Origin: a virus
DNA length: 35,751 bases
Virus record (IMG/VR): IMGVR_UViG_3300020430_000044
Coordinates: 1-35,751 of that record
Strand: one strand, 5' to 3'
Numbering within the stretch: position 1 is the first letter of the stretch; each line of letters opens with the position of its first letter. Shown here in pieces: positions 10,899-31,927 of the stretch. A program made the translations under genes and the position numbers. The notes beneath the pieces are model-generated. The model ran no database searches, was not told the DNA's origin, and saw only the letters and a program-made list of their open reading frames with translations.

Positions 10899-12278
10899 TT
10901 AATATTGGAAGTCTGAGAAGTCCCTTTTTTGAGTAACGATAGCTTCTCCAGCAGGCGTATTATCAAATACTGGTGTATCGTCAGTCAATGTTTGGGCGTT
11001 TTCTTCCACATCGTATAGCTTCATACGAGCTCGATCCACACCAATAATGAAACGCTTGTTCATTGTTGGATCATTATACCGGTTCTTAAGCTGTTTAACC
11101 ATGATTTGACCAAGCTTTTCGAGATCCTCGGTGGATACCAAAGCAAACATCAAATCGGCTGTAGCTGGCAAGCCAAACGATTCTGACGTATCTTCGAGGC
11201 CAACATCTGAGTTGCTATAACCAGAACGAGTTGTTTGAGTAGCCGTAACGATTGGCAAGTCAAATTCAACTGCAAGGCCACGAAGTTCCTCGGCGATTGC
11301 CTTAACATATGAGTAGGTGTTGATAGAACCACCAAGCCCTTTCATACGAGAGCTTGCACAAATGTTAAGGTAATCAATAAAGATGATGTCAGGCGTAAAA
11401 TCACGCTTGAGCTTGAGCTCGTTGAGCAGTGCACGGAAGTGACCGGAGTGAGCAGCACCTGTAGGATATTCCTTGATGATCAACTTACCTACATTCTTCT
11501 GAGCAATGCGTGTGATCTTGTCATCAAACATTGTCTTGGAAAGTGAAGTAAGTTGATCAATCGGAAGGTTCATAAGGTTTGCATCGATACGTTCAGCGAT
11601 ACGTTCCTCGGCCATTTCCATAGTAACATACAGGACATTCTTACCGAGAGTAAGAACCGACGCTGCATGGTGACACATGAACAATGACTTACCAACACCT
11701 GTGCCGGCAAGGACAACGTTCAATGTCTTGTTTGGAAGACCTTCCTTTGTAATCTTGTTAAAGTATTCAAGATCAAATGGAATACGATCTTCCTTCTTAT
11801 GATAAAACTCATAACGTTGTTCGGAGTTGTCAATATAGTCGTGACCAACGTTACTATCAAAGCAAACACCAAGTGCGTCTGATAGGAGAGATGGGAGTGC
11901 ATCTTTCTGTAGAGTTTTATGCTTTCCATCAATGATCGAAATGGATTCCATAATCGCAAGATAAATGCTGCGATCCTGGCACCACTTTTCGGTTTCATCA
12001 ATGAGCCATTCGCTATTCACTTCGGTTTCAGTAAAGACCGAGTGTAATACTTCACTTACACCTGGACCGTCATGAATGTTAGCGTTGGACAACTCAATGG
12101 AGAGTGCTTCCTTAGTTGGAAGCTTGTTGTATCGATTTACAAAGTCAACCACACAGTCAAAAACAATACGATGATTGTTTTCGAAGTATTCTTTTTTCAG
12201 AAATGGAATAACTTTGCGAGTATAATCTTCGTCGCTAATAAGGCTACGAAGAATTGTTGTTTGAATATCTATGTTCAT
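10899..12278 (-). CDS. 41: Replicative DNA helicase, T4 gp41-like
   Basis: A 459-residue hexameric 5'-3' helicase that unwinds the replication fork and partners with the primase. It has a helical N-terminal DnaB-type domain (about 1-150) and a RecA-like motor from about 165. The Walker A box AGTGVGKS is at 191-198, IIFIDYLNICASS is the Walker B region, and an ATQTTRSGYSN segment matches the H3 motif. The N-terminus MNIDIQTTILRSLI is typical of gp41 homologues, which supports the chosen start. The start overlaps the TauD-like gene by 35 bases. It lies downstream of uvsX, as in T4, but with the dioxygenase-like gene inserted between. Confidence 0.95.
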   Translation of the reverse strand: MNIDIQTTILRSLISDEDYTRKVIPFLKKEYFENNHRIVFDCVVDFVNRYNKLPTKEALSIELSNANIHDGPGVSEVLHSVFTETEVNSEWLIDETEKWCQDRSIYLAIMESISIIDGKHKTLQKDALPSLLSDALGVCFDSNVGHDYIDNSEQRYEFYHKKEDRIPFDLEYFNKITKEGLPNKTLNVVLAGTGVGKSLFMCHHAASVLTLGKNVLYVTMEMAEERIAERIDANLMNLPIDQLTSLSKTMFDDKITRIAQKNVGKLIIKEYPTGAAHSGHFRALLNELKLKRDFTPDIIFIDYLNICASSRMKGLGGSINTYSYVKAIAEELRGLAVEFDLPIVTATQTTRSGYSNSDVGLEDTSESFGLPATADLMFALVSTEDLEKLGQIMVKQLKNRYNDPTMNKRFIIGVDRARMKLYDVEENAQTLTDDTPVFDNTPAGEAIVTQKRDFSDFQY

Positions 12279-13113
12279 AATCTACCTTGCTATAATCAAA
12301 TGCGATACGGTGAAGCACCCGCTGCTTCATACCTTCAAATTGCCATCTCTTGTGGATACTTAACCACTGCTCACTGAGAACGATATCGCCGTCGTCCCAG
12401 TCATGGTCATACCGATATTTATCTTTGAGGACGTGACTTTTGAGCTTTTCCATAGTATAATTAAAAGCTTCTTCATCAAGACTTTTCATACCAAAGATTT
12501 GTAAAAACGGGAAGTAGAGACCAGTCTTACCAGCATCATTTGTATGTACCAGCTTAAATGGCCTATCAGATGCGTGGTGTTCATGAAAGAATTTGCTAGT
12601 GCTGTATGAGCCAGACTTGTATCCTAAAGTAATTTCAGTGTGTTGCAGCTCTTCTTTTGTAACATCATCGAGATCGTTGTAAGCCTCAATCATATTGATC
12701 CAGCTAGTTCTGCTCCCTTTTGTTCCTTCAACACCGTATAACCAGATAAGAGGTTTTCTTTCATAGTTACTTGCCTGGTTTGCGTGCCAGTCAAGTGCAG
12801 ATGTGTGGCCAAACAAACCTTCTTCGCCTTTGTCATTAGGTTTACCCGTAACACGAAGAATATAGTTATCCACAGCCATATGCTCTGTACGTTGACCGCT
12901 ACGAGGCTTTGTTGGATCTATAATTCGTTGGCACTGACCAATCATTGAGCAAAAGTCTTCTTCCTGCTTTGACGTCATATCTTGCTTTTTGATAACTACA
13001 ACCATGTTGCTTACAGTATCACAAGCAATTTCATGCGCTTGCTCTAACGTAGCTTTTGTAATATCAAAGTCGTAGACTTCAATTGCCCAATCATTAATTA
13101 GTCTTTTCTTCAT
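12244..13113 (-). CDS. TauD/TfdA-like 2-oxoglutarate dioxygenase homologue with altered metal motif
   Basis: A 289-residue protein resembling the TauD family over its length. ALDWHANQ at 107-113 stands where TauD has the iron-binding WHTD, so the HxD motif reads H110-A-N112. PLIWLYGVEGTKGSRTSWINM follows, as in TauD after the motif. Near the C-terminus SEQWLSIHKR could give the distal histidine, and VLHRIAFDY the 2-oxoglutarate-binding arginine. The Asp-to-Asn change may weaken or alter iron chemistry. Start at ATG 13113 (a GTG lies just before). It lies between uvsX and gp41. Substrate unknown; a role in nucleotide or DNA modification is only a guess. Confidence 0.75.
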   Translation of the reverse strand: MKKRLINDWAIEVYDFDITKATLEQAHEIACDTVSNMVVVIKKQDMTSKQEEDFCSMIGQCQRIIDPTKPRSGQRTEHMAVDNYILRVTGKPNDKGEEGLFGHTSALDWHANQASNYERKPLIWLYGVEGTKGSRTSWINMIEAYNDLDDVTKEELQHTEITLGYKSGSYSTSKFFHEHHASDRPFKLVHTNDAGKTGLYFPFLQIFGMKSLDEEAFNYTMEKLKSHVLKDKYRYDHDWDDGDIVLSEQWLSIHKRWQFEGMKQRVLHRIAFDYSKVDYEHRYSNNNSS

Positions 13114-13411
13114 CACCTACCCTATAGTTACCTGATTCAAATGCATCAGCAACAATATGCTGAAGGATCTCACCAATGTGATTGCCGAATGCAGGGTTAT
13201 TATCAAGATCCATACCCGTAGGATTCTCAAGGATCTGATATGTAAAATCAAGTCGAGCCAAACCTTCTTCTGTATTTTCAACAACTGCCTTTACTTCACC
13301 GTAAACGTAGATTGTACCTTTCCACATGCTGGATAGGAGTTCTACGCAATGGTGATTACTAAAGTCGGCGTTTTCTACAAACTTGTAATCTTCCTCAGTG
13401 ATCGTTATCAT
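13094..13411 (-). CDS. Conserved T4-like marine phage protein, function unknown
   Basis: A 105-residue acidic protein beginning MITITEEDYKFVENADFS, with beta-rich segments (GTIYVYGEVKAVVE, ARLDFTYQIL) and a C-terminal helix (IGEILQHIVADAFESG). I recognise it as a type that follows uvsX in marine T4-like phages, but know no function. It overlaps uvsX by 17 bases at its start and the dioxygenase-like gene by 20 bases at its end, so it belongs to the uvsX-gp41 operon. A recombination or single-strand-DNA accessory role is speculation from position. Confidence 0.65.
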   Translation of the reverse strand: MITITEEDYKFVENADFSNHHCVELLSSMWKGTIYVYGEVKAVVENTEEGLARLDFTYQILENPTGMDLDNNPAFGNHIGEILQHIVADAFESGNYRVGDEEKTN

Positions 13412-14474: not shown

Positions 14475-14503
14475 ATTATACCATAAACTGGTCGAGTTGT
14501 ACA
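14475..14503 (-). promoter_or_regulatory. Extended -10 sigma70-like promoter for uvsX
   Basis: Minus-strand TGTACA (14503-14498), a 17-base spacer ending in TGG, and TATAAT (14480-14475). The promoter lies within the last codons of the methyltransferase-like gene. Start of transcription is expected near 14468, leaving about 20 bases of leader with the GAGGAG ribosome site before the uvsX ATG. Confidence 0.75.
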
Positions 14504-15675
14504 CTAATTCTTTCAACCTCTTTTGTCTGTGTTTTGTTATCTTGAACCATGTACTTGGTTTCAATCAGCTGGTTGTCAAGTCTTCCCTCACAGAACTTCA
14601 AGACATGCTCCGCCATATCTTGTGCTGTGGTAACAGGCACATTTTGACAAATGTGATTGATGTTTTTCTTTCCTCCCTGTAGGATAAAGTCCTCAGGTAA
14701 TCCCATAATCGATAAGCACTCACGAATCGTAAGGAATCGATCTTCGTCAGGGTGTGTAAGCATAGTTGGGAAAGCACCAACAAAAGCACCGATGTAATCT
14801 TTTGGAACGATTACGCCTCTGCGCATGATGTTTCCACCTGACTTCAGTTTAGATGCCATAGCATCACAGCGAATGGCCTGCTTTTCATAGCCATTGCTTC
14901 TCATCCATTGTGCAACTACGTCATAGGTATATCCACTATCCTCAATATAGTGTTTAACATCTGCACTCTTTTTGATTGTGTCCTGAAATTCATTGTGAGA
15001 CATTCCGCCCTCAATCACCTCAAGGACGTAGCGATAGTATGGGTCTTGTGACGGAACATTTTCGTTTGTAAGGACTGACATTGGATCACTTGGATCGCGT
15101 TTCACGGAACGAATCGTGTCCTCAATCGTTTTATGTTCTCTTTTTATATATTCAAAAACGGGTACTTTTTCGCCCTTCCAGAAAAAATAAAATGTACGAT
15201 CTCTTACCTGGGAAAGTCCATGAAGGATGCTTTTTGTTTTAAAAATGCTAAAACTGTATCCGTTTTCTCTTGCGATTTCTCGAAGATCTTGGACAACTGG
15301 TTCTCCCATTTTGCTAGCGAGTCGTGGTGCATTTTCTCCCCAAAAGACCTTGGGCCGTAAAGTACCGAGTACATGACGAGCACTGGTGCGCATCCAATCA
15401 TTAGCAGCAGCATCAGAACTACTTGTAGTGCTAAGGCTACTAAGGCCAGCACAAGGGCACACAGTGTTAATAACATCAACAGACTCAACCTGAGGTATTG
15501 AATCCCCTTGAATAACATGGTAGGGGACTTCGTTTTTATAATACTCCAATAAGTGTTTATCATTATCTTGAAATCCTTCATATGATAGGATGTATTCGGG
15601 CCGAGACCCGAATACATTTTGCATTGCGATCGTTTCACCGCCGATCAACGGGACAATACTTGCATACTTAACCAT
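14476..15675 (-). CDS. Divergent DNA cytosine-5 methyltransferase-like protein
   Basis: A 399-residue protein with the ordered motifs of C5-cytosine methyltransferases. A motif I-like PLIGGET at 9-15 lacks the usual F-x-G. Motif IV is CPCAGLS with the candidate catalytic C75, motif VI reads GENAP at 113-117 (normally ENV), motif VIII reads QVRDR at 156-160, and motif X is NVPVTTAQ near 348-355. The variable region (about 200-290) would hold the target recognition domain. It overlaps the sugar dehydrogenase gene by eight bases. The altered motifs leave activity uncertain. It would be odd beside a hydroxymethylcytosine pathway unless it acts on another target or at another time. Confidence 0.8.
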   Translation of the reverse strand: MVKYASIVPLIGGETIAMQNVFGSRPEYILSYEGFQDNDKHLLEYYKNEVPYHVIQGDSIPQVESVDVINTVCPCAGLSSLSTTSSSDAAANDWMRTSARHVLGTLRPKVFWGENAPRLASKMGEPVVQDLREIARENGYSFSIFKTKSILHGLSQVRDRTFYFFWKGEKVPVFEYIKREHKTIEDTIRSVKRDPSDPMSVLTNENVPSQDPYYRYVLEVIEGGMSHNEFQDTIKKSADVKHYIEDSGYTYDVVAQWMRSNGYEKQAIRCDAMASKLKSGGNIMRRGVIVPKDYIGAFVGAFPTMLTHPDEDRFLTIRECLSIMGLPEDFILQGGKKNINHICQNVPVTTAQDMAEHVLKFCEGRLDNQLIETKYMVQDNKTQTKEVERISVQLDQFMV

Positions 15676-16611: not shown

Positions 16612-17546
16612 TAGTTAACTCCATAATATGATTTGTACCAGTTACAGAACTCATGAACACCGTCTGCAATTGGGGTTGTAGGATTATACCCATACTTCTT
16701 GAGTTTAGTGGTATCCGACCAAGTTTCAGGAACATCGGCAGGATGCTTTGGTTCTAGATTGCGCGTAGCTTTCCGACCAAACTCTTTTTCAATACAGTCT
16801 ACAAAATCAAGTAACTGCACTTGTTCACCATAGCCAATGTTAAAGATCTCATGACCAGGGATGTCAGATTCAAGTACAATCTGTACACCTTGTACAATAT
16901 CTTCAACATAGGTAAAGTCACGTTTCATGTCACCGTAGTTATAAAGTGTAATGGGTTCATCTTTAACAATACCATCTGCAAACTTAAACAGTGCCATGTC
17001 TGGTCGACCGTATGGACCATACACTGTAAAGAAGCGAAGGCCAATAGTATTGTCAAGAGTACTATGCATAAACTGACATTCGTTTGCACGCTTTGACCAG
17101 CCATACGGATTATTCTGGTGGCCAGGACGATCATGTTCATTCCATGGAAGTGGCTGACCATGCATTACACATGAGCTTGAAGCATACACAACCTTCGGCG
17201 TACCAGCACGTTGAGTAGCCTCAATAAGACGCTGTGTGCCGGTAATGTTGGTGTCGATGTAATGCTGCGGAAACTCAAGTGAATGTCTTGGGTTTGCATA
17301 TGCTGCAAGGTGAAGTACTGCGTCAACTCCTTCTAGGTTTTTATCCCAGTCATAGTCAACTAGGTCGCCGTGTTCTACCACGACGCCCGTAGATTGAGCT
17401 AAAATGTCAGCCCTATCTTCTTTAAGTTGTGGATCGTAGTATGGGTTGAAGTTATCCATACCCACTACTTCGTGTCCAGATCTGTGCAATTTAAGTGCAC
17501 AATGAAAGCCGATCATGCCGGCCATTCCAGTAATTAAAATTTTCAT
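16611..17546 (-). CDS. NAD-dependent UDP-sugar epimerase, UDP-glucuronate 4-epimerase-like
   Basis: A 311-residue extended short-chain dehydrogenase/reductase. It has an N-terminal NAD-binding ITGMAGMIGFHCA at 5-17, the catalytic region YASSSCVMHG with YGWSKRANE supplying the YxxxK pair, and YGPYGRPDMALFKF, a sequence typical of UDP-glucuronate 4-epimerases. Paired with the adjacent UDP-sugar dehydrogenase it would convert UDP-glucose via UDP-glucuronate to UDP-galacturonate. It overlaps the glycosyltransferase gene as ATGA and is therefore co-translated with it. Exact sugar specificity cannot be read from sequence alone. Confidence 0.85.
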   Translation of the reverse strand: MKILITGMAGMIGFHCALKLHRSGHEVVGMDNFNPYYDPQLKEDRADILAQSTGVVVEHGDLVDYDWDKNLEGVDAVLHLAAYANPRHSLEFPQHYIDTNITGTQRLIEATQRAGTPKVVYASSSCVMHGQPLPWNEHDRPGHQNNPYGWSKRANECQFMHSTLDNTIGLRFFTVYGPYGRPDMALFKFADGIVKDEPITLYNYGDMKRDFTYVEDIVQGVQIVLESDIPGHEIFNIGYGEQVQLLDFVDCIEKEFGRKATRNLEPKHPADVPETWSDTTKLKKYGYNPTTPIADGVHEFCNWYKSYYGVN

Positions 17547-18784
17547 GCGAAAAACTCCTCGAGTCCTTGTGGTTGGTTAATATCAGAGGTCGCTAACTCA
17601 ATGATTTCGTTCACAACCATCTCACCGTCTGAGTGTTGCTTCCAAAATTCAAAGGCCATTTCTCTCCAATCATCTCTCATCGATGGATCATTCTTTAGTT
17701 TGACCATCAGGTCACGGCACTCTTCAAAGTTAGTATAATCAAGACCAATAGTGCCGGTATTGGTACATTGAGTAACGGGTTTGTCCTGAACTCTATGAAT
17801 CACATTATCACAAAAGTGCTTATGGAAGATTGGAACTGCACCGGATGCTACGATCTCGGCATGACAGTTTTCAATATTGTTGCCATAAGTTTCTGCCTTC
17901 AAGTGATAAAGATCAGAACCGAATGCAGATAGCGAGAGTCTATTCATGCAATCTACATTTATATATTGAGGATAAAGGTACGCGCCTTTTCCTACAGTTT
18001 CAGTGCCATACATTTCGGGTTTGAACTTGCCAAATTCGCCGTGCTTCTTTTCTGGCCTGAAATAATTTTCAACAATGCGTCGATCCTTAGGTTCCTTTTC
18101 CTTGTTATCACGATAGAGAACAAGAGGATACTGGATCGATGCTTCAAGTCCTTCAAGGACTGTGATGAATTCGGATTCCATAAGAGCATCTTGATGAAAG
18201 TCAATCATCAAGGCAGGACCTTTCCACATGGCAGTACGTCCAATCCAACGTACCATGCTTCGCTGCTGTGCATGAATTGATTTCCAGTATTTTGCTCTAT
18301 GACCATCATAGTCAAAACCAAGTCCCATCTTCTTGAGTGGAACTGTGATTTTATTTTTACGCATAAATCTACAGAAATCGTTTTCCATACTATGCGTCAT
18401 GATAACATCCATCTTCTCACATACCTCTTTGAGGTTTGCATTACGTGCAATGGATGCTGCTTTGTGGTCTACATTGATAAATGCTTTTTTGATTTTGATT
18501 GCGTCAAGCAACTTTAAAAAGTTTTCTTGACAATCTTCGGGATGTCCTTTTGAAGGAACGGAGTATACAATACAGAGGTCGTGCTGATTAACAATATTCG
18601 CCATCTCCTCCCATTCCTTGCCAACAGATTTTTCAAGTTGATGAATATCAAGTCCCTTTGCACGACCCCATTTTTTATCATTAGCTGACAAGATCGTTGC
18701 ATTAGTTACTTTCTGCATCTGAATGGCGCACTGAGTTACGCCGCAGCCTTCAGTGCCGCGTCCTAATACAATAATTGTTTTCAA
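17543..18784 (-). CDS. GT-B-type glycosyltransferase-like protein, candidate DNA glycosyltransferase
   Basis: A 413-residue protein. The N-terminal half starts with IIVLGRGTEGCGVTQCA, a glycine-rich strand-loop-helix. The C-terminal half carries ENCHAEIVASGAVPIFHKHF (about 327-346), the E...A-G-vP segment by which GT-B enzymes bind the nucleotide sugar, followed by a typical DPSMRDDWREMAFEFW tail. The start is a TTG at 18784, six bases after AGGAG. It lies directly upstream of the UDP-sugar epimerase and close to dCMP hydroxymethylase, so transfer of a sugar to hydroxymethylcytosine DNA is a good guess. Host-surface or virion glycosylation is the alternative. Confidence 0.7.
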   Translation of the reverse strand: MKTIIVLGRGTEGCGVTQCAIQMQKVTNATILSANDKKWGRAKGLDIHQLEKSVGKEWEEMANIVNQHDLCIVYSVPSKGHPEDCQENFLKLLDAIKIKKAFINVDHKAASIARNANLKEVCEKMDVIMTHSMENDFCRFMRKNKITVPLKKMGLGFDYDGHRAKYWKSIHAQQRSMVRWIGRTAMWKGPALMIDFHQDALMESEFITVLEGLEASIQYPLVLYRDNKEKEPKDRRIVENYFRPEKKHGEFGKFKPEMYGTETVGKGAYLYPQYINVDCMNRLSLSAFGSDLYHLKAETYGNNIENCHAEIVASGAVPIFHKHFCDNVIHRVQDKPVTQCTNTGTIGLDYTNFEECRDLMVKLKNDPSMRDDWREMAFEFWKQHSDGEMVVNEIIELATSDINQPQGLEEFFA

Positions 18785-18793
18785 TTTTTTCTC

Positions 18794-19168
18794 CTAGGTT
18801 TGAGTTCCAACTTCAGGTAAGTTGAAGTTAATCGTACCCTTGCCGTATGCAAGAATACAAACTTGCTCATTTGGATCTGTTTCTTCACCAGGCTTAGATT
18901 CTGTAAACTCAAGTAAAGTCCAAGTGTGAGTCTTACTGTTTTGAGCCAATACAATCTTAACTGTAGACTCAGTACCGTCTGGCATCTTAACCTTTCCATC
19001 CATATATATGAGTGGATTTTCGCCAAACTTTTTCATCATAGGGACCATTTGTGCTGCAGTAGTACACTGGATAGGTTTACTAGCCCAATATCCCAGGTTA
19101 GGTTCTTGTGATTGCGCAGCTGACGATGCCAGTAAAAACATGCCTGCTGCTGTGATTAAATGTTTCAT
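18794..19168 (-). CDS. Small exported protein, function unknown
   Basis: A 124-residue protein with a clear Sec signal peptide (MKHLITAAGMFLLASSAAQSQ), probably cleaved near residue 19-21. The mature part contains two cysteines (QCTTAAQM and EQVCIL) that could form a disulfide in the periplasm, and a beta-rich body. I chose the ATG at 19168, just after the upstream TAA; the longer frame would run through the UDG-like gene. I recall similar proteins in marine T4-like phages without a known role. Confidence 0.65.
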   Translation of the reverse strand: MKHLITAAGMFLLASSAAQSQEPNLGYWASKPIQCTTAAQMVPMMKKFGENPLIYMDGKVKMPDGTESTVKIVLAQNSKTHTWTLLEFTESKPGEETDPNEQVCILAYGKGTINFNLPEVGTQT

Positions 19169-19169
19169 T

Positions 19170-19541
19170 TTAGCTTTCCAAGTAGTTGCGGCAATCTTCA
19201 ATGACTCCTTTTTCAAAAGAAGGATCATTGAACTTGCGGTTTCGAGGGCTTGGGTGTGGCATCTTAAAATGTTTAACATTAATCTTTTTAAGACACATAC
19301 TTGCATAGTTACCGAGAGCAATTACTTTATCATAGCCCTGCGTACATTGGCGTAGTTGATCGTAATTAGCCTGTAGCTGATTGTAATCGCCGGCTGAATC
19401 TATGCAGTTGATAAAAGAGTGATATGTGATGCCAAGTTCATTGCACCATCTCTCTAGACGTTGAATCGTCTGGGCCTTCTTCGGGCTTTTCCAATTATCT
19501 TTAGCTGGGTTTAATCCCACTATAATGATCTTGTCCATCAT
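19170..19541 (-). CDS. Uracil-DNA-glycosylase-superfamily-like protein
   Basis: A 123-residue protein with the two end motifs of the UDG fold: an N-terminal IIIVGLNPAKDN (about 5-16) in place of the water-activating loop, and a C-terminal MPHPSPRNRKFND (about 94-106) matching the HPS-type loop that holds the DNA. VIALGNYASMCLKK lies between, as in the family. It is small for the fold, which normally has about 190 residues or more. A role in base excision or in recognising modified bases is inference. It overlaps the deaminase gene by 41 bases. Confidence 0.65.
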   Translation of the reverse strand: MMDKIIIVGLNPAKDNWKSPKKAQTIQRLERWCNELGITYHSFINCIDSAGDYNQLQANYDQLRQCTQGYDKVIALGNYASMCLKKINVKHFKMPHPSPRNRKFNDPSFEKGVIEDCRNYLES

Positions 19542-19995
19542 ACTCTATAAAGGTGTATTCAACACCTGCTTCATCAAACATAGATTTTGTCAGTTCCCAT
19601 GAGTCACGCCATTTTTCAGGAACTTCTTGTTCTGGCATGACCACTTTTTTGATTCCTACTTGAATGACTCCTAAAGCACAGTCACTACAAACAGGTAATC
19701 CATAAACATACAACGTAGATCCCTGAAGAGATTGACCGTGGTATGTAGCATTGAAGATAGTATTCATCTCAGCATGCACTATATATTTATACTTCACTGC
19801 ACGATTGCTGAGACGATTCCAACTATCTCTCATCCCCCTAGGCAAACCATTGTATCCTTGAGCGATAACTCGACCATCAGCAACCGCAATAACGCCAACT
19901 TGAGTTGACGGGTCTTTTGACCAACCTGCAATTTCGTGTGCTAGTCGAAGATATCGTTGTTCCCATTTACTTGACAAGGTGGAAGTGCCTTTCAT
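19501..19995 (-). CDS. cd: Deoxycytidylate (dCMP) deaminase
   Basis: A 164-residue zinc enzyme converting dCMP to dUMP. The zinc site is YIVHAEMNTIFNA (H-A-E proton-shuttle motif) with PVCSDCALGVIQ (C-x2-C ligands). KDPSTQVGVIAV near the N-terminus is typical of the family. The start is uncertain: the ATG at 19995 lacks a good ribosome site, and a TTG at 19977 preceded by AAAGG would give MSSKWEQRY, closer to other dCMP deaminases. It overlaps the dCMP hydroxymethylase gene. Together they set the balance between dUMP/dTMP and hydroxymethyl-dCMP. Confidence 0.92.
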   Translation of the reverse strand: MKGTSTLSSKWEQRYLRLAHEIAGWSKDPSTQVGVIAVADGRVIAQGYNGLPRGMRDSWNRLSNRAVKYKYIVHAEMNTIFNATYHGQSLQGSTLYVYGLPVCSDCALGVIQVGIKKVVMPEQEVPEKWRDSWELTKSMFDEAGVEYTFIEYDGQDHYSGIKPS

Positions 19996-20647
19996 AAACA
20001 TGAAGGTTTTGAACCTGCCAGTGCATAAAGCCTGGCTCAATCTTATCACCTTCAGTTAAATCATTATATGCATCACAAAGCATGTCCATTACATGACGCT
20101 GCCAAGCATAATCATTTTTGTATCCAAACACGACGTCATTTGAGCGCATTTGAACAACGGACTGTAGCTCACCATTGCGTATGTAATAAGTAACAGCATT
20201 AGTGCATATGAAATCGTTTTTACCATTTTCATTGTACTCCACCCAAATGCTTGGACGATTGTAGACCATAGTAGCTCTACGACCATCTTGGTTTTTAAGC
20301 AGTTCCCAAAGAACTTGTTGAAACTGGCTGTAATATTTATCGCTATAGATTAGCGTTCCATAATTACTGTTAATTTCTCCGTGTTCATTTGCACTATACT
20401 TCCAAGCTGCTGGAGGTTCTGCGTCAGGTCGTATGTCAAAAATGTTAGTAGACATAGAGTCATACCAATCAAGCTCATCATTAACATACTCTTCATTGAC
20501 AGTGCCGAAGATGCTCGCTTCGTCGGCGATAAAGGACGCAGGCATAAGCTCAATAGTCTTTTGTCCAGTTCTGTCCATTGTGAATGCTTCATCATTTAAT
20601 TCTCCAATAAAGAACTCACGGATATCTTTACAGCTGTATAATCTCAT
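19967..20647 (-). CDS. 42: dCMP hydroxymethylase, T4 gp42-like
   Basis: A 226-residue thymidylate-synthase-fold enzyme that adds a hydroxymethyl group to dCMP. Alignment by eye with T4 gp42 is close throughout: ASFIADEASIFG at 37-48, GEINSNYG at 90-97, DFICTNAV with catalytic C148, MRSNDVVFGYKNDYAWQ at 167-183, and LHVYERHFHLV near the end. Aspartate 179 in YKND replaces the asparagine that thymidylate synthases use for dUMP, which favours dCMP. It ends slightly earlier than the 246-residue T4 protein. Start overlaps the Nmad1-like gene (ATGA). It implies hydroxymethylcytosine in the phage DNA. Confidence 0.92.
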   Translation of the reverse strand: MRLYSCKDIREFFIGELNDEAFTMDRTGQKTIELMPASFIADEASIFGTVNEEYVNDELDWYDSMSTNIFDIRPDAEPPAAWKYSANEHGEINSNYGTLIYSDKYYSQFQQVLWELLKNQDGRRATMVYNRPSIWVEYNENGKNDFICTNAVTYYIRNGELQSVVQMRSNDVVFGYKNDYAWQRHVMDMLCDAYNDLTEGDKIEPGFMHWQVQNLHVYERHFHLVK

Positions 20648-24249: not shown

Positions 24250-24964
24250 CCATTATTTGCAATATTTCGTAAGTATCTTTCCAGTTTTGAACTTCAATTG
24301 CAGCACCGTTTTGAACTTCTGCTTCAATTGCTTTCTTCAATGGATAGTCATTACCACCTTCTTGCATCTTATCACCGAAGAACGTAATGTTCTTTTCTGG
24401 TAAGTATTCAAGGACTTGGTCTTTCATACAACCTACTGGCATGATATCAAGGCCTGTTTCACCTGCCACTTGAGCAATTACTCCTTCAGTAATAAAGTTT
24501 TCATTGAAGAAACGAGCAATGGTTTCTCGTTCTTCAAAGGACTTATCAAAGTCTTTGTACATCTTACGTTCAGCAAGATGAGCGTTTCTTCCAACTATTG
24601 AAAAGTTGAACAATCCAATACGTTGCTCGAAATGTTTTCCTGTACGAAGAGGGAAGGTAGAGTTATTAAGCTCAACCTCAAGCCACCCAATCATATGATC
24701 TGGAAGAGACCAGTCGGATTCATATGTAACCTCACCGTTCTTCCAGATATGATTACCGCTACAGTTGAATACAGCTTTTACGTTTTCACAGATATACTGT
24801 CCTACTTGCTCGACTGTTTTAGGATAATCCGATCCCGTAACGAGATAGACGTCATGCCTACTCATTAAGTATTTTACAAAGAACTCCTGAAACTCAGGAT
24901 CCATTTGCCCCCTACTCGGTGTAAGGGTACCATCTACGTCAAAGATAAATGTTGTGTCTGTCAT
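24236..24964 (-). CDS. Eukaryote-type phosphomannomutase-like HAD enzyme
   Basis: A 242-residue HAD phosphotransferase resembling eukaryotic PMM rather than the bacterial ManB family. FIFDVDGTLTPSR at 6-18 has D9 and D11. FNFSIVGRNAHLAER (about 118-132) matches the PMM sugar-phosphate-binding LNVSPIGR region. IMPVGCMKDQ follows, then FFGDKMQEGGNDYPL near the end with the magnesium-binding motif. The length equals the eukaryotic enzyme (about 245). Mannose-6-phosphate to mannose-1-phosphate would be the expected reaction, for GDP-mannose. The start overlaps gp43's stop (ATGA). A plain HAD phosphatase is the alternative. Confidence 0.8.
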   Translation of the reverse strand: MTDTTFIFDVDGTLTPSRGQMDPEFQEFFVKYLMSRHDVYLVTGSDYPKTVEQVGQYICENVKAVFNCSGNHIWKNGEVTYESDWSLPDHMIGWLEVELNNSTFPLRTGKHFEQRIGLFNFSIVGRNAHLAERKMYKDFDKSFEERETIARFFNENFITEGVIAQVAGETGLDIMPVGCMKDQVLEYLPEKNITFFGDKMQEGGNDYPLKKAIEAEVQNGAAIEVQNWKDTYEILQIMVYNS

Positions 24965-27576
24965 GCGAAAAATGCATCGAGCGTTGCACGCTCTTCAGCC
25001 TCCCAGCCAATTGATTCCAAGATAGGCGTAATCACATCAAGGAATGTTTTTTCAAATTGAACCTTCTTATCTACATATTTATGAAGTTGTAATTCTTCAG
25101 GCAGATAATCGGTAAACGATATCACGTTTTCACGAATAGGATTCGGCATCTTGAGATAGCAGAACTTGATCTTGTCACCGCTTTTGATTGCGGAATACTT
25201 TTTGTCAAGCCCCATTTGCGAAAGGTGATGATTGTGTAGGATAGCACCACGTACGTGGATTGGTGTACCCTTAGCATAGATTTCACTACGCTTACGAGAC
25301 CACTTGTCAATGTCACTTACACTGCGAGGGAATGATACCTCTTCAGGCGGAAGAGACATGAAGTAAGTCTTGAACTGTGCAATTGCATCCTGTGTTTTTG
25401 TTTCAGAACCAGTAACAATTACTTTGAAGATTTCTTTCAAGGCCTGACGTACTTCGGCAGGCGTACTTGACTTGATAGCTTCAATACCCATGATTTTGAG
25501 TTTTGGTTCAGCATATCGTACACCTTCATTGTCATGCACATTGAGAATGTACCGCTTCTTTGCAGTCCAAATGCCAACATCGGCGATTGCTTCACGAGCC
25601 ATGACCATACGATTGTCATAGCTACCAAGCAGTTCATGCAATTCTGCATAGGCTTTTTCAATAACTGGTTCAATAACATCTTTACAAAATGAGTCAAGAG
25701 CATTGACGTTTTTAGTCATGTCAGTTTGACCAACTGCTTTTACAACCGGTCCGAAGTTAACATAAAGCGAATCTGTATCGATTGCGATAACATAGTCTTC
25801 GCCTTGTGTCTTAAGCACACTGTTGAGTTTTGCATTCACTGTTTCTTCAGCCCAGCGAATACATGTTTGGCCAGTAAGAGTTACAGCCTCGGCCATACGA
25901 AGATCAAAGTACTTAAAGTACTTGTTACCGAGTGCACCATAAAGGCTGTTCATCATAATTTTAATAGCCATCTGCTGATTTTCAAGGCGATTGATTTCAC
26001 GTTCAAGGCGATAGATATTTTGTTTATCACCCTTATCTGCACGTTCAATGGCCTGCTTTGCCTCAAGCATTTTCTTCTTGATTTCAGCACGTTCGGCATA
26101 GTAGTCTACGATAATAGATGGAATGATTCCACGGCGATCATTGCTAAAGTGAACACCATTACCAGCAAGAGAATGAGTATCGGCATTGCGAACACGTCCT
26201 TCCAAGATTGCGTCCGGATGTACACCACCAGTTCTTTCAGGCAAGATTGTTTCAGGCGACATATTCCATTGGACAATGATATTAGGATAAAGCGAGTTCA
26301 AATCAAAAGAACATACCCAATCATGCAATCCAACCTGAGGATCTTTTACATAGCCACCGGCAAAACCAGAAGATTTTGATGTGGATTCTGCAGTAGAACC
26401 CTGCGCATTCGGTGTCTTTGTGTCATGCTTCTTATGATAGTTCTTGTTTGGTTCAAATGTAGGATCACCTTCAATTTGATCAATAGGAGGGATAACCTTG
26501 ACACGGTTACCCATCAGCCTACGATAAATGATAGTATCCCACATTGACGTAGTACCAAGCGTATCATTATAATTGATACCGGCTTTGTACGCAATAGTCA
26601 TAACCAACGTAATCAAACCCATCTTATCTTCGATACGATCAACAAGTTCAACATCACGAATATTATAGTCAATGAACTTTTGGTGATCATTTAAGTAGAG
26701 GGTGTGTAGGTTACTATGTTCTTCATAGGAAAGTTTCTTTTCACCAAGCACCACGTTAGCGATGTTGTTGAGTGAGTATGATTCCTGTGGACCATAAGAG
26801 TAACCAAACTTTTTGAATAGCGTCATATAATCAAGCGAAGCCATTCCAAAGATTTCATAGGTAGTTCTTTCCATGCCTTTGAAGTTACGCTTACGTTGGT
26901 TGATTTTCTTCCAAGGCGAAAGCAGATTTTCTTGGCCGCTACCCATAACATTTGCGATACGATGTACAATGTAAGGAATATCAAAGTATTCGGTATTCCA
27001 ACCTGTTACAACATCAGGCGAATGCTTGTTCCAATGCACAAGGAAAGCACTGAGTAGTTGTACTTCGGTATCACACTTCTTATAGACAACACGGTGTTCT
27101 TTCATGTAACTGGACTCGACGTTATAGTCGCCAAGACCCCACACATAGAACGTGTTGTCGATATTGTTTTTCATTGTGATTGAGATAATTGGATGTGCTG
27201 CTTCGTCTGGCTCAGGGAAGCCATCATCAGAAGCAACCTCAATATCGATTGACGTAACGTTAATAGAGTCACGATCGAACTCGATATCATTTGGAAACTT
27301 TTCAGTCAAGAATTGATTGATATAGTTTTTGTTGCCATACATCTTTTTGCCACCGACACCGGTGTACATTTTGATGTGGTCTGTACAATCACGCATTGTT
27401 TGGAATGATTTAGGTTCTACAAACCTACCGTCCATTCCAATGATTTCTGTTTTCCAGTTGACAGCCTGATAAATTGTGGGCTCAAATGGAACTTCATATG
27501 CGACAGGGCGGCCATTATCATAGCCGCGATATAGGAGCTTGTTACCCCAACGATTGACACATGTGTAGAATTGCAA
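24961..27576 (-). CDS. 43: DNA polymerase, family B, T4 gp43-like
   Basis: The replicative polymerase with 3'-5' proofreading, 871 residues. Exonuclease motifs appear as SIDIEVASDDG (Exo I), TGWNTEYFDIPY (Exo II) and a DYNIRDVELVDRI segment (Exo III). Polymerase motifs are SFDLNSLYPNIIVQWN (motif A), KIMMNSLYGALGN (motif B) and IAIDTDSLYVNFG (motif C). I favour a TTG start at 27576, giving MQFYTCVNRWGN, because GGAGG lies seven bases before it and homologues begin there. The ATG at 27591 would place that ribosome site inside the gene and sits at the transcription start. It follows the clamp and loader genes, as in T4. Confidence 0.95.
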   Translation of the reverse strand: MQFYTCVNRWGNKLLYRGYDNGRPVAYEVPFEPTIYQAVNWKTEIIGMDGRFVEPKSFQTMRDCTDHIKMYTGVGGKKMYGNKNYINQFLTEKFPNDIEFDRDSINVTSIDIEVASDDGFPEPDEAAHPIISITMKNNIDNTFYVWGLGDYNVESSYMKEHRVVYKKCDTEVQLLSAFLVHWNKHSPDVVTGWNTEYFDIPYIVHRIANVMGSGQENLLSPWKKINQRKRNFKGMERTTYEIFGMASLDYMTLFKKFGYSYGPQESYSLNNIANVVLGEKKLSYEEHSNLHTLYLNDHQKFIDYNIRDVELVDRIEDKMGLITLVMTIAYKAGINYNDTLGTTSMWDTIIYRRLMGNRVKVIPPIDQIEGDPTFEPNKNYHKKHDTKTPNAQGSTAESTSKSSGFAGGYVKDPQVGLHDWVCSFDLNSLYPNIIVQWNMSPETILPERTGGVHPDAILEGRVRNADTHSLAGNGVHFSNDRRGIIPSIIVDYYAERAEIKKKMLEAKQAIERADKGDKQNIYRLEREINRLENQQMAIKIMMNSLYGALGNKYFKYFDLRMAEAVTLTGQTCIRWAEETVNAKLNSVLKTQGEDYVIAIDTDSLYVNFGPVVKAVGQTDMTKNVNALDSFCKDVIEPVIEKAYAELHELLGSYDNRMVMAREAIADVGIWTAKKRYILNVHDNEGVRYAEPKLKIMGIEAIKSSTPAEVRQALKEIFKVIVTGSETKTQDAIAQFKTYFMSLPPEEVSFPRSVSDIDKWSRKRSEIYAKGTPIHVRGAILHNHHLSQMGLDKKYSAIKSGDKIKFCYLKMPNPIRENVISFTDYLPEELQLHKYVDKKVQFEKTFLDVITPILESIGWEAEERATLDAFFA

Positions 27577-27601
27577 AGCTTTTACCTCCATTACGAATAC
27601 T

Positions 27602-27972: not shown

Positions 27973-28020
27973 TTATCGTCCAGAAATGGCGTCGTTTTCT
28001 TCTTCAGTATAAGGCCACAT
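27973..28020 (-). CDS. Putative 15-residue peptide MWPYTEEENDAISGR
   Basis: The ATG at 28018-28020 overlaps the pseudoazurin stop as TAATG, the same coupling used by many real genes here, and the frame ends at 27973. The acidic peptide MWPYTEEE- resembles very small open frames that I recall in other marine T4-like phages. It ends just before the terminator-like hairpin. Length alone cannot prove a gene. Confidence 0.4.
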   Translation of the reverse strand: MWPYTEEENDAISGR

Positions 28021-28451
28021 TACAGTTCACCTAAAAGTGCTTTCAGTTTCTTTTTCGATTTACCCATTGCTTTTGCTTTAGCAATTGCATCTTTGTTTGA
28101 TACATCATTACCAACTACAACAAGACCAATCATGCCCATGCCTTTATGTGGTGTGCACCAGTAGTAATAGATGCCAGGTACTTCGAATGTCATAGAAACT
28201 TCTTTGCCATTCTTAGATTTTTTAGGAAGTTCAGCCCCATCAGGACCAGCAATGAATTCGACATTGTGGCCTTTTGAAATTGGGACCCAAGTAATGGTTT
28301 CGCCTACATCAACTTTCGCAAGTTCTTCGCTGTAAATCATTTTGTTTCCAGCGTCGTCCTTGTTCAACATTTCAATAGTCATATCTGCATATGCAAAGCT
28401 GGAGATAAACACCAGACCAAACACTGCCATGAAAAATGCTAATACTTTCAT
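28020..28451 (-). CDS. Pseudoazurin-like blue copper protein, exported
   Basis: A 143-residue periplasmic electron carrier. A Sec signal peptide (MKVLAFFMAVFGLVF..., cut after AYA near 22) precedes a cupredoxin domain starting MTIEMLNKD, the pseudoazurin N-terminal strand. Type 1 copper ligands are all present: H62 in KGHNVEF, then C99, H102 and M107 in YYWCTPHKGMGMIGL. The C-terminal helices (DAIAKAKAMGKSKKKLKALL) are also typical of pseudoazurin and absent from plastocyanin. Pseudoazurins pass electrons to nitrite and nitrous oxide reductases. The start at 28451 overlaps the upstream stop (TAATG). It is likely an auxiliary metabolic gene. Confidence 0.9.
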   Translation of the reverse strand: MKVLAFFMAVFGLVFISSFAYADMTIEMLNKDDAGNKMIYSEELAKVDVGETITWVPISKGHNVEFIAGPDGAELPKKSKNGKEVSMTFEVPGIYYYWCTPHKGMGMIGLVVVGNDVSNKDAIAKAKAMGKSKKKLKALLGEL

Positions 28452-28582
28452 TATAACCAATACTTTCCTTTAAACATGAGTTCTCTCTGACGTCTTTCAA
28501 GATCGACAAGATCTGTAGACTTAGCGAGATAGTCGTGAATAGGGTCTTTACCTTTGAAGAATGCTTTAATCCACTTAATCAT
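28451..28582 (-). CDS. Small DUF3563-like protein, 43 residues
   Basis: ATG at 28580-28582 follows AAGGAGTTTCCGA, a strong ribosome site. The product contains HDYLAKSTDLVDLERRQREL, very like the yLAqStDLxDLErR core of the short DUF3563-like proteins found in proteobacteria and phages. It has an amphipathic N-terminal helix (MIKWIKAFFKG). The stop overlaps the pseudoazurin ATG as TAATG, and the start overlaps the upstream gene by eight bases. Function unknown. Confidence 0.65.
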   Translation of the reverse strand: MIKWIKAFFKGKDPIHDYLAKSTDLVDLERRQRELMFKGKYWL

Positions 28583-28838
28583 TCGGAAACTCCTTATGAA
28601 TCGATGCGATTGTTCTCGCGTTCAAATCATTTAAGAGTTGCCAATAATCAGACTGACGATATTCGCCAGCATGAATCAGTTGCTGTGCAACTTTCTGATT
28701 GGCTTCTGTTTGACGTGCAATCATCCAACCAATCATAATACCTTGAAGTGTTTTCTTAAAGCCGTTTAAGACGATTTTTAAAACCCCATAGAATCCTTCA
28801 AGTAGACTCTTGGAGTAGCTCAGCGCTATTGTTGTCAT
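28575..28838 (-). CDS. Small protein with hydrophobic helix, 87 residues
   Basis: The real start is the ATG at 28838 (MTTIALSYSKSLLEG), preceded by GAGG. A longer frame to 29030 only reads through the Hsp20 gene out of frame. A long amphipathic to hydrophobic helix (FYGVLKIVLNGFKKTLQGIMIGWMIAR, about 16-42) precedes a polar helical tail. It overlaps the 3' end of Hsp20 by 41 bases. I recognise the general type (short helical proteins in marine T4-like phages) but no function. Confidence 0.6.
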   Translation of the reverse strand: MTTIALSYSKSLLEGFYGVLKIVLNGFKKTLQGIMIGWMIARQTEANQKVAQQLIHAGEYRQSDYWQLLNDLNARTIASIHKEFPND

Positions 28839-29262
28839 TTTGGTTTTCCTCGTTTTTTCCAATTGAAATTTTACGAGGCTGCTTCTCTTTAGGCAGAACG
28901 ACTTCAAGGTTGACAGCCAAGATTCCGTCCTCAAGATCTGCTCCGATGACTTCGGTATATTCCGATAGTCTGAATGACTTCTTCCAGTTCTTCGCACTGA
29001 TACCCTTATGAACATATCGATCCTGCTCACGTCTCGATGGACGCTGACCAGTAATGGTCAGGACATGGTCCTTGACTTCAATATCGATGTGATCTTTCTT
29101 GAATCCAGCCACAGCCATTTCGACGGTGAACTTCATGTCATCGTCTTTTACGACATTATGCGGTGGGTAGGTATCCTTCGCATGCTTGTGAATGCTCTCA
29201 AGCTGATCGAAGATGTGGTCGAAACCGATGAAACCCGAACGTGGGTATACTAATCCAGTCAT
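28798..29262 (-). CDS. Small heat shock protein Hsp20 (alpha-crystallin)
   Basis: A 154-residue ATP-independent chaperone. The alpha-crystallin domain runs from about 38 to 135: FTVEMAVAGFKKDHIDIEV, LTITGQRPSRREQDRYVHKGIS, KKSFRLSEYTEV and GILAVNLEVVLPKEKQPRKI, with the typical A-x-x-x-n-G-v-L near GILAV. The C-terminal IS-I like tail RKISIG is present. Hsp20 genes are common in marine T4-like phages. AGGAGG precedes the ATG, and a TATAAATA late-type element lies 62 bases upstream, so expression may be late, perhaps for virion assembly. Confidence 0.93.
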   Translation of the reverse strand: MTGLVYPRSGFIGFDHIFDQLESIHKHAKDTYPPHNVVKDDDMKFTVEMAVAGFKKDHIDIEVKDHVLTITGQRPSRREQDRYVHKGISAKNWKKSFRLSEYTEVIGADLEDGILAVNLEVVLPKEKQPRKISIGKNEENQNDNNSAELLQEST

Positions 29263-29461: not shown

Positions 29462-29845
29462 TCACGAAGCCTTCGAGTTTCCTATGTTGTATTTTGGACA
29501 CAAGTTCCACTGGTCCTTATCTCTAAATGAGATAATCTTAATCTGCCTCAACGGTGCTTTGTCATGTACCTGTGATTCATCGACAAACGAAATCAGACCC
29601 CAATCCGAAAGGAGCGTAGCTACTGTATTTCGTCTTTGAATATCGTTAACCATCAGGTTCGATGGCTTTCCGTCAAGTAAAAATAATTCTTTAAAATGTG
29701 TAATGAAATATCTGCCTTGTTTGTGCAAGATATGACATGATTGATAGAGAGTATTATCCTTGCGTGAAGCTACGCCAATACGTGTAAGTGTTTCTCGTAC
29801 TTTGAGGAAATCATCCGGCGTGTTAAGCTGGACTTCCAGCATCAT
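29462..29845 (-). CDS. regA: RegA translational repressor
   Basis: A 127-residue protein that binds mRNA at translation starts of early genes to block ribosomes. It aligns closely with T4 RegA: DDFLKVRETLTRIGVASRKD, LYQSCHILHKQGRYFITHFKELF, and a C-terminal WNLCPKYNIGN. The start at 29845 (MMLEVQL) matches T4 RegA; the longer GTG frame at 29887 has a ribosome site that overlaps the codon and is less likely. It follows gp62 and precedes the accessory group and gp43, keeping the T4 order 62-regA-43 apart from the insertion. Confidence 0.9.
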   Translation of the reverse strand: MMLEVQLNTPDDFLKVRETLTRIGVASRKDNTLYQSCHILHKQGRYFITHFKELFLLDGKPSNLMVNDIQRRNTVATLLSDWGLISFVDESQVHDKAPLRQIKIISFRDKDQWNLCPKYNIGNSKAS

Positions 29846-29870
29846 TGCTGGCGTCCATTCACAGCTCTCA

Positions 29871-30251
29871 TTATTTTCGTTTTCCACCTTTGTAAACCTT
29901 TGCTTTTAACTGTTCAATTTGTTCATCATTTAGGATAGTCAAAGCTTGGCGTGCTTTTTCGTTGCTGTAACCATAATACTCTTTGACAACCTTAATGTTA
30001 TCTTCTTCTTCAGCTTTCAACCATTTGCTGAAACGTTTCTTTTTTCTAATTGTATTTATAAAAAAGTCAAATTGAAGACGGTTGTCAAGATGATGCCGTT
30101 GGTTCATTTCATTAGCAAGAAGTGCGGTGTCATAAAAGTATGACAAACCGCGATTCACCATGAATGAGTTGTATTGCTTTTCAGCAATGTCATCAACCAT
30201 GATGTCTTTCTTCGTGCTATTGATCGCATTGAGATATTCAAATGGATTCAT
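29871..30251 (-). CDS. 62: Clamp loader small subunit, gp62-like
   Basis: A 126-residue protein in the position of T4 gp62, between gp44 and RegA. NPFEYLNAINSTKKDI, YNSFMVNRGLSYFYDTALLANEMNQ and KKKRFSKWLKAEEEDNI are features that I recognise from marine phage gp62 proteins. It pairs with gp44 to load the sliding clamp. It is shorter than T4 gp62 (187 residues) and helical. The start at 30251 (MNPFEY) overlaps the upstream stop as TAATG. Confidence 0.85.
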   Translation of the reverse strand: MNPFEYLNAINSTKKDIMVDDIAEKQYNSFMVNRGLSYFYDTALLANEMNQRHHLDNRLQFDFFINTIRKKKRFSKWLKAEEEDNIKVVKEYYGYSNEKARQALTILNDEQIEQLKAKVYKGGKRK

Positions 30252-30406
30252 TAAAACCACCCCAGCTTTATGCCATTATGAGCGATAATAAAAAAACAAG
30301 CGACCAGATGAGTAAGAACCCATGCTGAACGCAAGATAGCTGCAATGTCACTTTCACGGTCATCTCCTATTTTACTGCCAATTGTTTTGGCCCATATTTT
30401 CCACAT
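30251..30406 (-). CDS. Small membrane protein, 51 residues
   Basis: The ATG at 30404-30406 opens a 51-residue frame whose stop overlaps the gp62 ATG as TAATG. The product, starting MWKIWAKTIGSKIGDD, has one hydrophobic helix (AWVLTHLVACFFIIAHNGI, about 28-46). I recall similar MxKIWAKTxG-type small proteins in marine phages. Function unknown; coupling to gp62 translation is the main evidence that it is expressed. Confidence 0.6.
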   Translation of the reverse strand: MWKIWAKTIGSKIGDDRESDIAAILRSAWVLTHLVACFFIIAHNGIKLGWF

Positions 30407-31519: not shown

Positions 31520-31927
31520 CTACTTTTGAAATCGTAGTGTATGCCATTTCCCATCGTACATAAACTTTACTGTCGAGTGGGAATATACGGTTTTCGCGGT
31601 TTCGTTATAGCGCGTCTCAGTTGAGCAAACTCTCTTAGTACCACCACTAGCGTTACTATTTGAATGACCAAGCATACCACCAAGAATAGCTCCAATTGCA
31701 CCTCCACCTTCGATATTACCTACGTTGTTACCAATGATACCACCAAGAATGGCACCCTTTACTGCGTCTCCAGTCTTGTCACCAGAAACACTTACATCCC
31801 TACAAATTTCAACTTGGTAGGGAGTTTGTTCGATCACTGTTTTGAAGTGATCTTTAATAATGTTGTCAGCCATTGCAGGCGCAGCAAATGCCATACACAC
31901 TGCAAAGCTCATTAACAGCTTCTTCAT
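31520..31927 (-). CDS. Exported glycine-zipper protein
   Basis: A 135-residue protein with a Sec signal peptide (MKKLLMSFAVCMAFAAPAMA, cut near 21). Residues about 57-88 form a glycine zipper, GAILGGIIGNNVGNIEGGG then AIGAILGGMLGHSNS, of the type found in outer-membrane Rick_17kDa-like and 2TM proteins. The C-terminal part is beta-rich, ending WHTLRFQK. It probably inserts in or associates with the host envelope. The start overlaps the upstream gene (ATGA), and the end lies just before the gp44 promoter. I recall homologues in marine T4-like phages; function unknown. Confidence 0.75.
   Translation of the reverse strand: MKKLLMSFAVCMAFAAPAMADNIIKDHFKTVIEQTPYQVEICRDVSVSGDKTGDAVKGAILGGIIGNNVGNIEGGGAIGAILGGMLGHSNSNASGGTKRVCSTETRYNETAKTVYSHSTVKFMYDGKWHTLRFQK

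Follow-up and report, generated by a model that had tools for sequence, protein, structure and literature searches.

The DNA analysed here, referred to as the window, comprises 35.7 kb and comes from an IMG/VR virus record. Judged by its gene content, with a gp43-type polymerase, a clamp loader, RegA, UvsX- and gp41-like genes and Hsp20, the window belongs to a T4-like phage. Embedded among these phage genes is a gene of host metabolic type, as is typical of the auxiliary metabolic genes of T4-like phages. The original prediction had placed a phage-encoded pseudoazurin at 28020-28451 without giving a strand; we found an intact open frame of 143 amino acids plus stop which spans exactly this interval and is read on the minus strand, from 28451 down to 28020. 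The features of the locus are listed in Table 1. The overlap TAATG suggests that the DUF3563 gene and the pseudoazurin gene are co-transcribed, with coupled translation.

Table 1. The pseudoazurin gene, its protein features and the neighbouring phage genes in the window.
Feature	Position	Strand	Remarks
Pseudoazurin gene	28020..28451	(-)	143 aa; ATG at 28451, stop 28020-28022
Sec-type signal peptide, residues 1-22	28386..28451	(-)	predicted cleavage between AYA and D, read by eye
Copper ligand His62	28266..28268	(-)	invariant across 146 relatives
Copper ligand loop C99-T-P-H102-K-G-M-G-M107	28131..28157	(-)	C, H invariant; M in 145/146
C-terminal two-helix extension, helices 120-124 and 131-142, pseudoazurin mark	28026..28094	(-)	predicted model; PDB pseudoazurin match over 123 columns
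DUF3563 gene, directly upstream of pseudoazurin	28451..28582	(-)	43 aa; stop overlaps pseudoazurin start, TAATG, by one base
Hsp20 small heat-shock protein, conserved upstream neighbour	28798..29262	(-)	
RegA-type translational repressor	29462..29887	(-)	Pfam PF01818
gp62-type clamp loader A subunit	29871..30260	(-)	Pfam PF16790
gp43-type DNA polymerase, conserved downstream neighbour	24961..27591	(-)	identity 50% to phage C48C1, 45% to cyanophages

The gene order clamp-clamp loader-RegA-Hsp20-pseudoazurin-polymerase is kept in about 20 phage contigs, some of them cut short, across which the neighbouring genes have diverged to 40-90% identity. In other viral contigs, the pseudoazurin gene adjoins a gp41-like helicase gene or is located elsewhere. 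Phage C48C1, the nearest deposited phage, carries an unannotated gene of 266 amino acids between Hsp20 and polymerase (L177, 8162-8962). Since the same slot holds pseudoazurin in the window, it seems to be a cargo site.

The window also encodes a member of the DNA alpha-glucosyltransferase family (17543-18784; PF11440, E 2e-35), as does T4. In combination with genes resembling those for a cytosine-5 methyltransferase (14476-15675) and a thymidylate synthase (19967-20647), it hints at modified, glucosylated phage DNA. A gene of the TauD/TfdA dioxygenase family (12244-13116; PF02668, E 2e-21) lies between the UvsX- and gp41-like genes; it matches taurine dioxygenase weakly, and its usual HxD metal motif is apparently HAN. 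Two further small genes (18794-19321 and 31520-31927, of which the latter weakly matches a glycine zipper) contain signal-like stretches and may point to the export of additional phage proteins. No tRNAs were found in the window.

The pseudoazurin starts with MKVLAFFMAVFGLVFISSFAYA, a Sec-type signal stretch read by eye, followed by D. From this signal, a secreted or periplasmic protein is predicted. The MTIEMLN start that had been described comes after this signal. In an AlphaFold model built from 17 phage sequences (pLDDT 87), the protein forms a beta-sandwich and both C-terminal helices, the latter as had been proposed, while the signal region is modelled with low confidence, as expected for a signal peptide. 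The type 1 copper ligands His, Cys, His and Met, with the spacing C-x2-H-x4-M, are present at the positions claimed (H62, C99, H102 and M107). This spacing is also common to plastocyanin; hence, the ligands do not set pseudoazurin apart, as the original prediction had assumed, and the distinction instead comes from the C-terminal helices, together with the N-terminus and profile scores.

The Pfam profile Copper-bind matches the protein with an E-value of 1.4e-16 and places it among the cupredoxins. Within the cupredoxin class profiles, the pseudoazurin model TIGR02375 reached E 5e-29, compared with 5e-10 for plastocyanin and 2e-10 for amicyanin; profiles other than pseudoazurin gave E 1e-9 to 1e-11, so that pseudoazurin is ahead by about 18 orders of magnitude. 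TIGR02375 was also the best match of all 17 phage sequences in the alignment. The nearest solved sequences are PDB pseudoazurins (E 5e-25), and a fold search of the PDB with the model returned pseudoazurins as the top 27 matches (TM 0.86-0.89 by target), followed mostly by plastocyanins (TM 0.62-0.75). A better match to another cupredoxin class, which would have spoken against the prediction, did not appear, and an identity as plastocyanin or amicyanin was rejected on the basis of the profile scores and the C-terminal helices. The TIGR02375 score of 100.4 bits is about 9 bits below the NCBIfam equivalog cut-off of 109.85 bits, a threshold which a SAR116 chromosomal homologue also fails to reach (106.7 bits). 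We read this as divergence within the family and therefore classify the gene product, judged by its sequence, as a pseudoazurin family protein that is presumably copper-loaded, rather than as a TIGR02375 equivalog. In a viral structure library, the best matches were to a giant-virus copper protein and the third to a cyanophage plastocyanin, with no viral pseudoazurin among the top matches listed. A search of PHROGs gave plastocyanin only and no pseudoazurin family.

A database search for other phage pseudoazurins, as had been advised, was successful. In two scans of viral contigs, relatives were encoded on 322 and 400 stretches, and the 80 top matches from each scan were examined. Among 50,697 deposited phage records, we found none with pseudoazurin, the nearest proteins being cyanophage plastocyanins with about 30% identity; the open-access literature covered by PMC yielded no report on a phage pseudoazurin or cupredoxin. 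Over 146 distinct viral and cellular relatives, the ligands are essentially invariant (Table 1), and the decay of the copper site in close relatives that would have spoken against the prediction was not found. Over 202 viral pairs, Ka/Ks had a median of about 0.13. Between the window and its nearest relative (L018) it was about 0.04, so that the gene is not a chance frame. The phage gene is under purifying selection and is maintained, not decaying. A passenger gene without a function in infection would fit the variability of the slot, which C48C1 fills with a different gene, yet it is highly improbable given a Ka/Ks well below 1, hundreds of copies and several phage contexts.

In a single scan of genome contigs, most of the cellular relatives, which have 58-80% identity to the phage protein, came from marine Alphaproteobacteria, above all from SAR116, Rhodobacteraceae and single cells of the AG-447 type. 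Viral and bacterial rows are interleaved in the tree and its well-supported forks force at least five changes; the gene has therefore probably been exchanged between phages and bacteria several times. For example, the phage sequence L067 groups with three Rhodobacteraceae rows (support 100/99). The tree, built on 120 columns, has weak fork support around the clade of the window and does not single out a donor lineage or a direction of transfer. The pseudoazurin of a 335-kb contig from a Neomarinimicrobiota MAG (L104) groups with phage rows, by misbinning or transfer. Relatives of the phage polymerase were not found in 729 genomes (136 of the SAR116 order, 297 of the SAR11 order and 296 of the family Rhodobacteraceae). 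In tetranucleotide and GC composition, the window is weakly nearest to Rhodobacteraceae and sox-bearing SAR116 loci and, again weakly, furthest from SAR11 and low-GC SAR116 loci. The phage probably infects marine alphaproteobacteria, the putative host being SAR116 or Rhodobacteraceae-like; its marine origin is deduced from the relatives and not from sample records.

The classical role of characterised pseudoazurins lies in denitrification (PMC12423496), and the original prediction had suggested that the phage supports respiratory or denitrification electron flow. A role as electron donor to copper nitrite reductase or nitrous oxide reductase is improbable here, since NirK above cut-off was found in none of 17 close-homologue genomes and none of 136 SAR116-order genomes, and NosZ in none of the 17 (the NosZ control itself scored below cut-off only, and the reductase markers covered were NirK and NosZ). 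The denitrification role is accordingly not supported, while respiratory electron flow is the likely theme; a haem-copper oxidase is encoded in 13 of the 17 genomes, incomplete assemblies included. Together with the sox and sor context of the homologues described below, these findings speak against denitrification and make it likely that the protein takes part in aerobic electron transfer, to which sulfur oxidation would be one contributor.

The five closest SAR116-order homologues (L085, L086, L088, L090 and L093) are located inside the sox operon for thiosulfate oxidation, between soxD and soxB. The closest SAR116 gene order is soxR-, soxW-, soxY, soxZ, soxC, soxD, pseudoazurin, soxB and flavocytochrome, where the names soxR, soxW, soxD and flavocytochrome are our own assignments from the sequences. 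Around L086, SoxY, SoxZ, SoxC and SoxB all score above the NCBIfam cut-offs, and the other four loci share the order. Among the 136 SAR116-order genomes, 63 carry a homologue, 52 SoxC and 34 both, corresponding to an odds ratio of 3.6 (p 0.0007; a statistic that ignores kinship and completeness). SoxC lies within 2 kb of the homologue in eight of them, among which are the five whose homologues match the phage protein best, and was not found in 29 of the 63 pseudoazurin-bearing genomes, genome completeness not being taken into account. A homologue from Pelagibacteraceae (L110) adjoins a SorT-like sulfite dehydrogenase and a cytochrome. Thus, a sox or sor operon houses the gene in a subset of the bearers and not in all; many cellular homologues (e.g. 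L095, L102 and L082-L084) do not adjoin sox genes.

In Sinorhizobium, azu2 is part of the sorT operon, shares its regulation with sorT and has been proposed as the electron acceptor of sulfite oxidation (PMC3511301), and two pseudoazurin/cupredoxin genes of Hyphomicrobium respond to the sulfur regulators SoxR/sHdrR (PMC12423496). Phage soxYZ, soxC and soxD are known (PMC8190135). With this precedent, and with the position of the five SAR116-order homologues and of L110, it is conceivable, though we do not favour it, that the phage protein is a sulfur-specific helper which mainly relieves the acceptor step of Sox/SoxCD or SorT, an auxiliary gene like those phage sox genes. Other close homologues away from sox speak against such a narrow role. 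A phage soxY beside pseudoazurin was likewise not found: SoxY was missing from 48 fragmentary viral records in which the profile control was silent, and a search of viral contigs, reaching close relatives only, gave no relatives of SAR116 SoxY.

In Paracoccus, pseudoazurin donates electrons to cytochrome c peroxidase. The phage cupredoxin could accordingly serve not respiration but copper or stress buffering, by chelating copper, by donating to a periplasmic peroxidase or by protecting the envelope like Hsp20, which it adjoins in window-type contigs. We regard this as unlikely, considering the full ligand set and redox fold under strong constraint and the sox and oxidase context of the cellular relatives.

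Overall, we favour with moderate confidence that the protein is a secreted, copper-loaded pseudoazurin acting as a shuttle in aerobic electron flow through the periplasm, with Sox or sulfite oxidation as a frequent source. Judging by the position of its gene, it would be made alongside the replication genes of the T4-like phage. In the periplasm of the infected cell, it may pass electrons one at a time to the terminal oxidase, receiving them from the bc1 complex and, where the host has them, from periplasmic sulfur dehydrogenases (SoxCD or a SorT-type sulfite dehydrogenase). Copper would thereby replace the iron of a c-type cytochrome, and respiration and ATP supply could be sustained while host proteins turn over, to the benefit of the phage. 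More tentatively, marine T4-like phages of chemoheterotrophic sulfur-oxidisers may have repeatedly taken up the sox copper electron acceptor of their hosts for infection. Such phages would control the electron outlet and not a pathway enzyme, with pseudoazurin as the equivalent of cyanophage plastocyanin outside photosynthesis.

Electron carriers of this type encoded by phages are known in cyanophages, where they serve photosynthesis. With a widespread phage pseudoazurin family, viral control of electron transport would reach ocean bacteria that do not photosynthesise, and would be linked to respiration that is aerobic and sulfur-fed, and to copper instead of iron. Moreover, the family could serve as a marker gene for the hosts of these phages.

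Compared with characterised pseudoazurins (PDB 1bqk/1zia; Alcaligenes faecalis 1paz; Paracoccus 1adw; Sinorhizobium 3tu6; Hyphomicrobium 3ef4), the phage protein shares the fold, the ligand set and spacing, the MLN N-terminus and the C-terminal helices at 35-45% identity. It differs in being carried by a phage, in falling under the NCBIfam equivalog cut-off and in that the homologue-bearing genomes examined lack denitrification genes; relative to 1bqk, the loop ahead of the ligand region is two residues shorter. The cyanophage plastocyanin PetE (PHROG 515), the best match among deposited phages, is likewise a phage-encoded type 1 copper carrier, but its alignment ends before the C-terminal helices and it serves photosynthesis. 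The pseudoazurins of the five SAR116 sox operons are 70-74% identical over the matched length, with the same ligands and C-terminus, whereas they are chromosomal and a few residues shorter (in the PDGAELPKK segment). If the sox link holds, the phage soxYZ, soxC, soxD, dsrA and dsrC genes (PMC8190135) would likewise be phage genes of sulfur-oxidation electron flow; the sulfur auxiliary genes described there are sulfur carriers or enzymes, and azurin, plastocyanin and cupredoxin are not mentioned in that paper.
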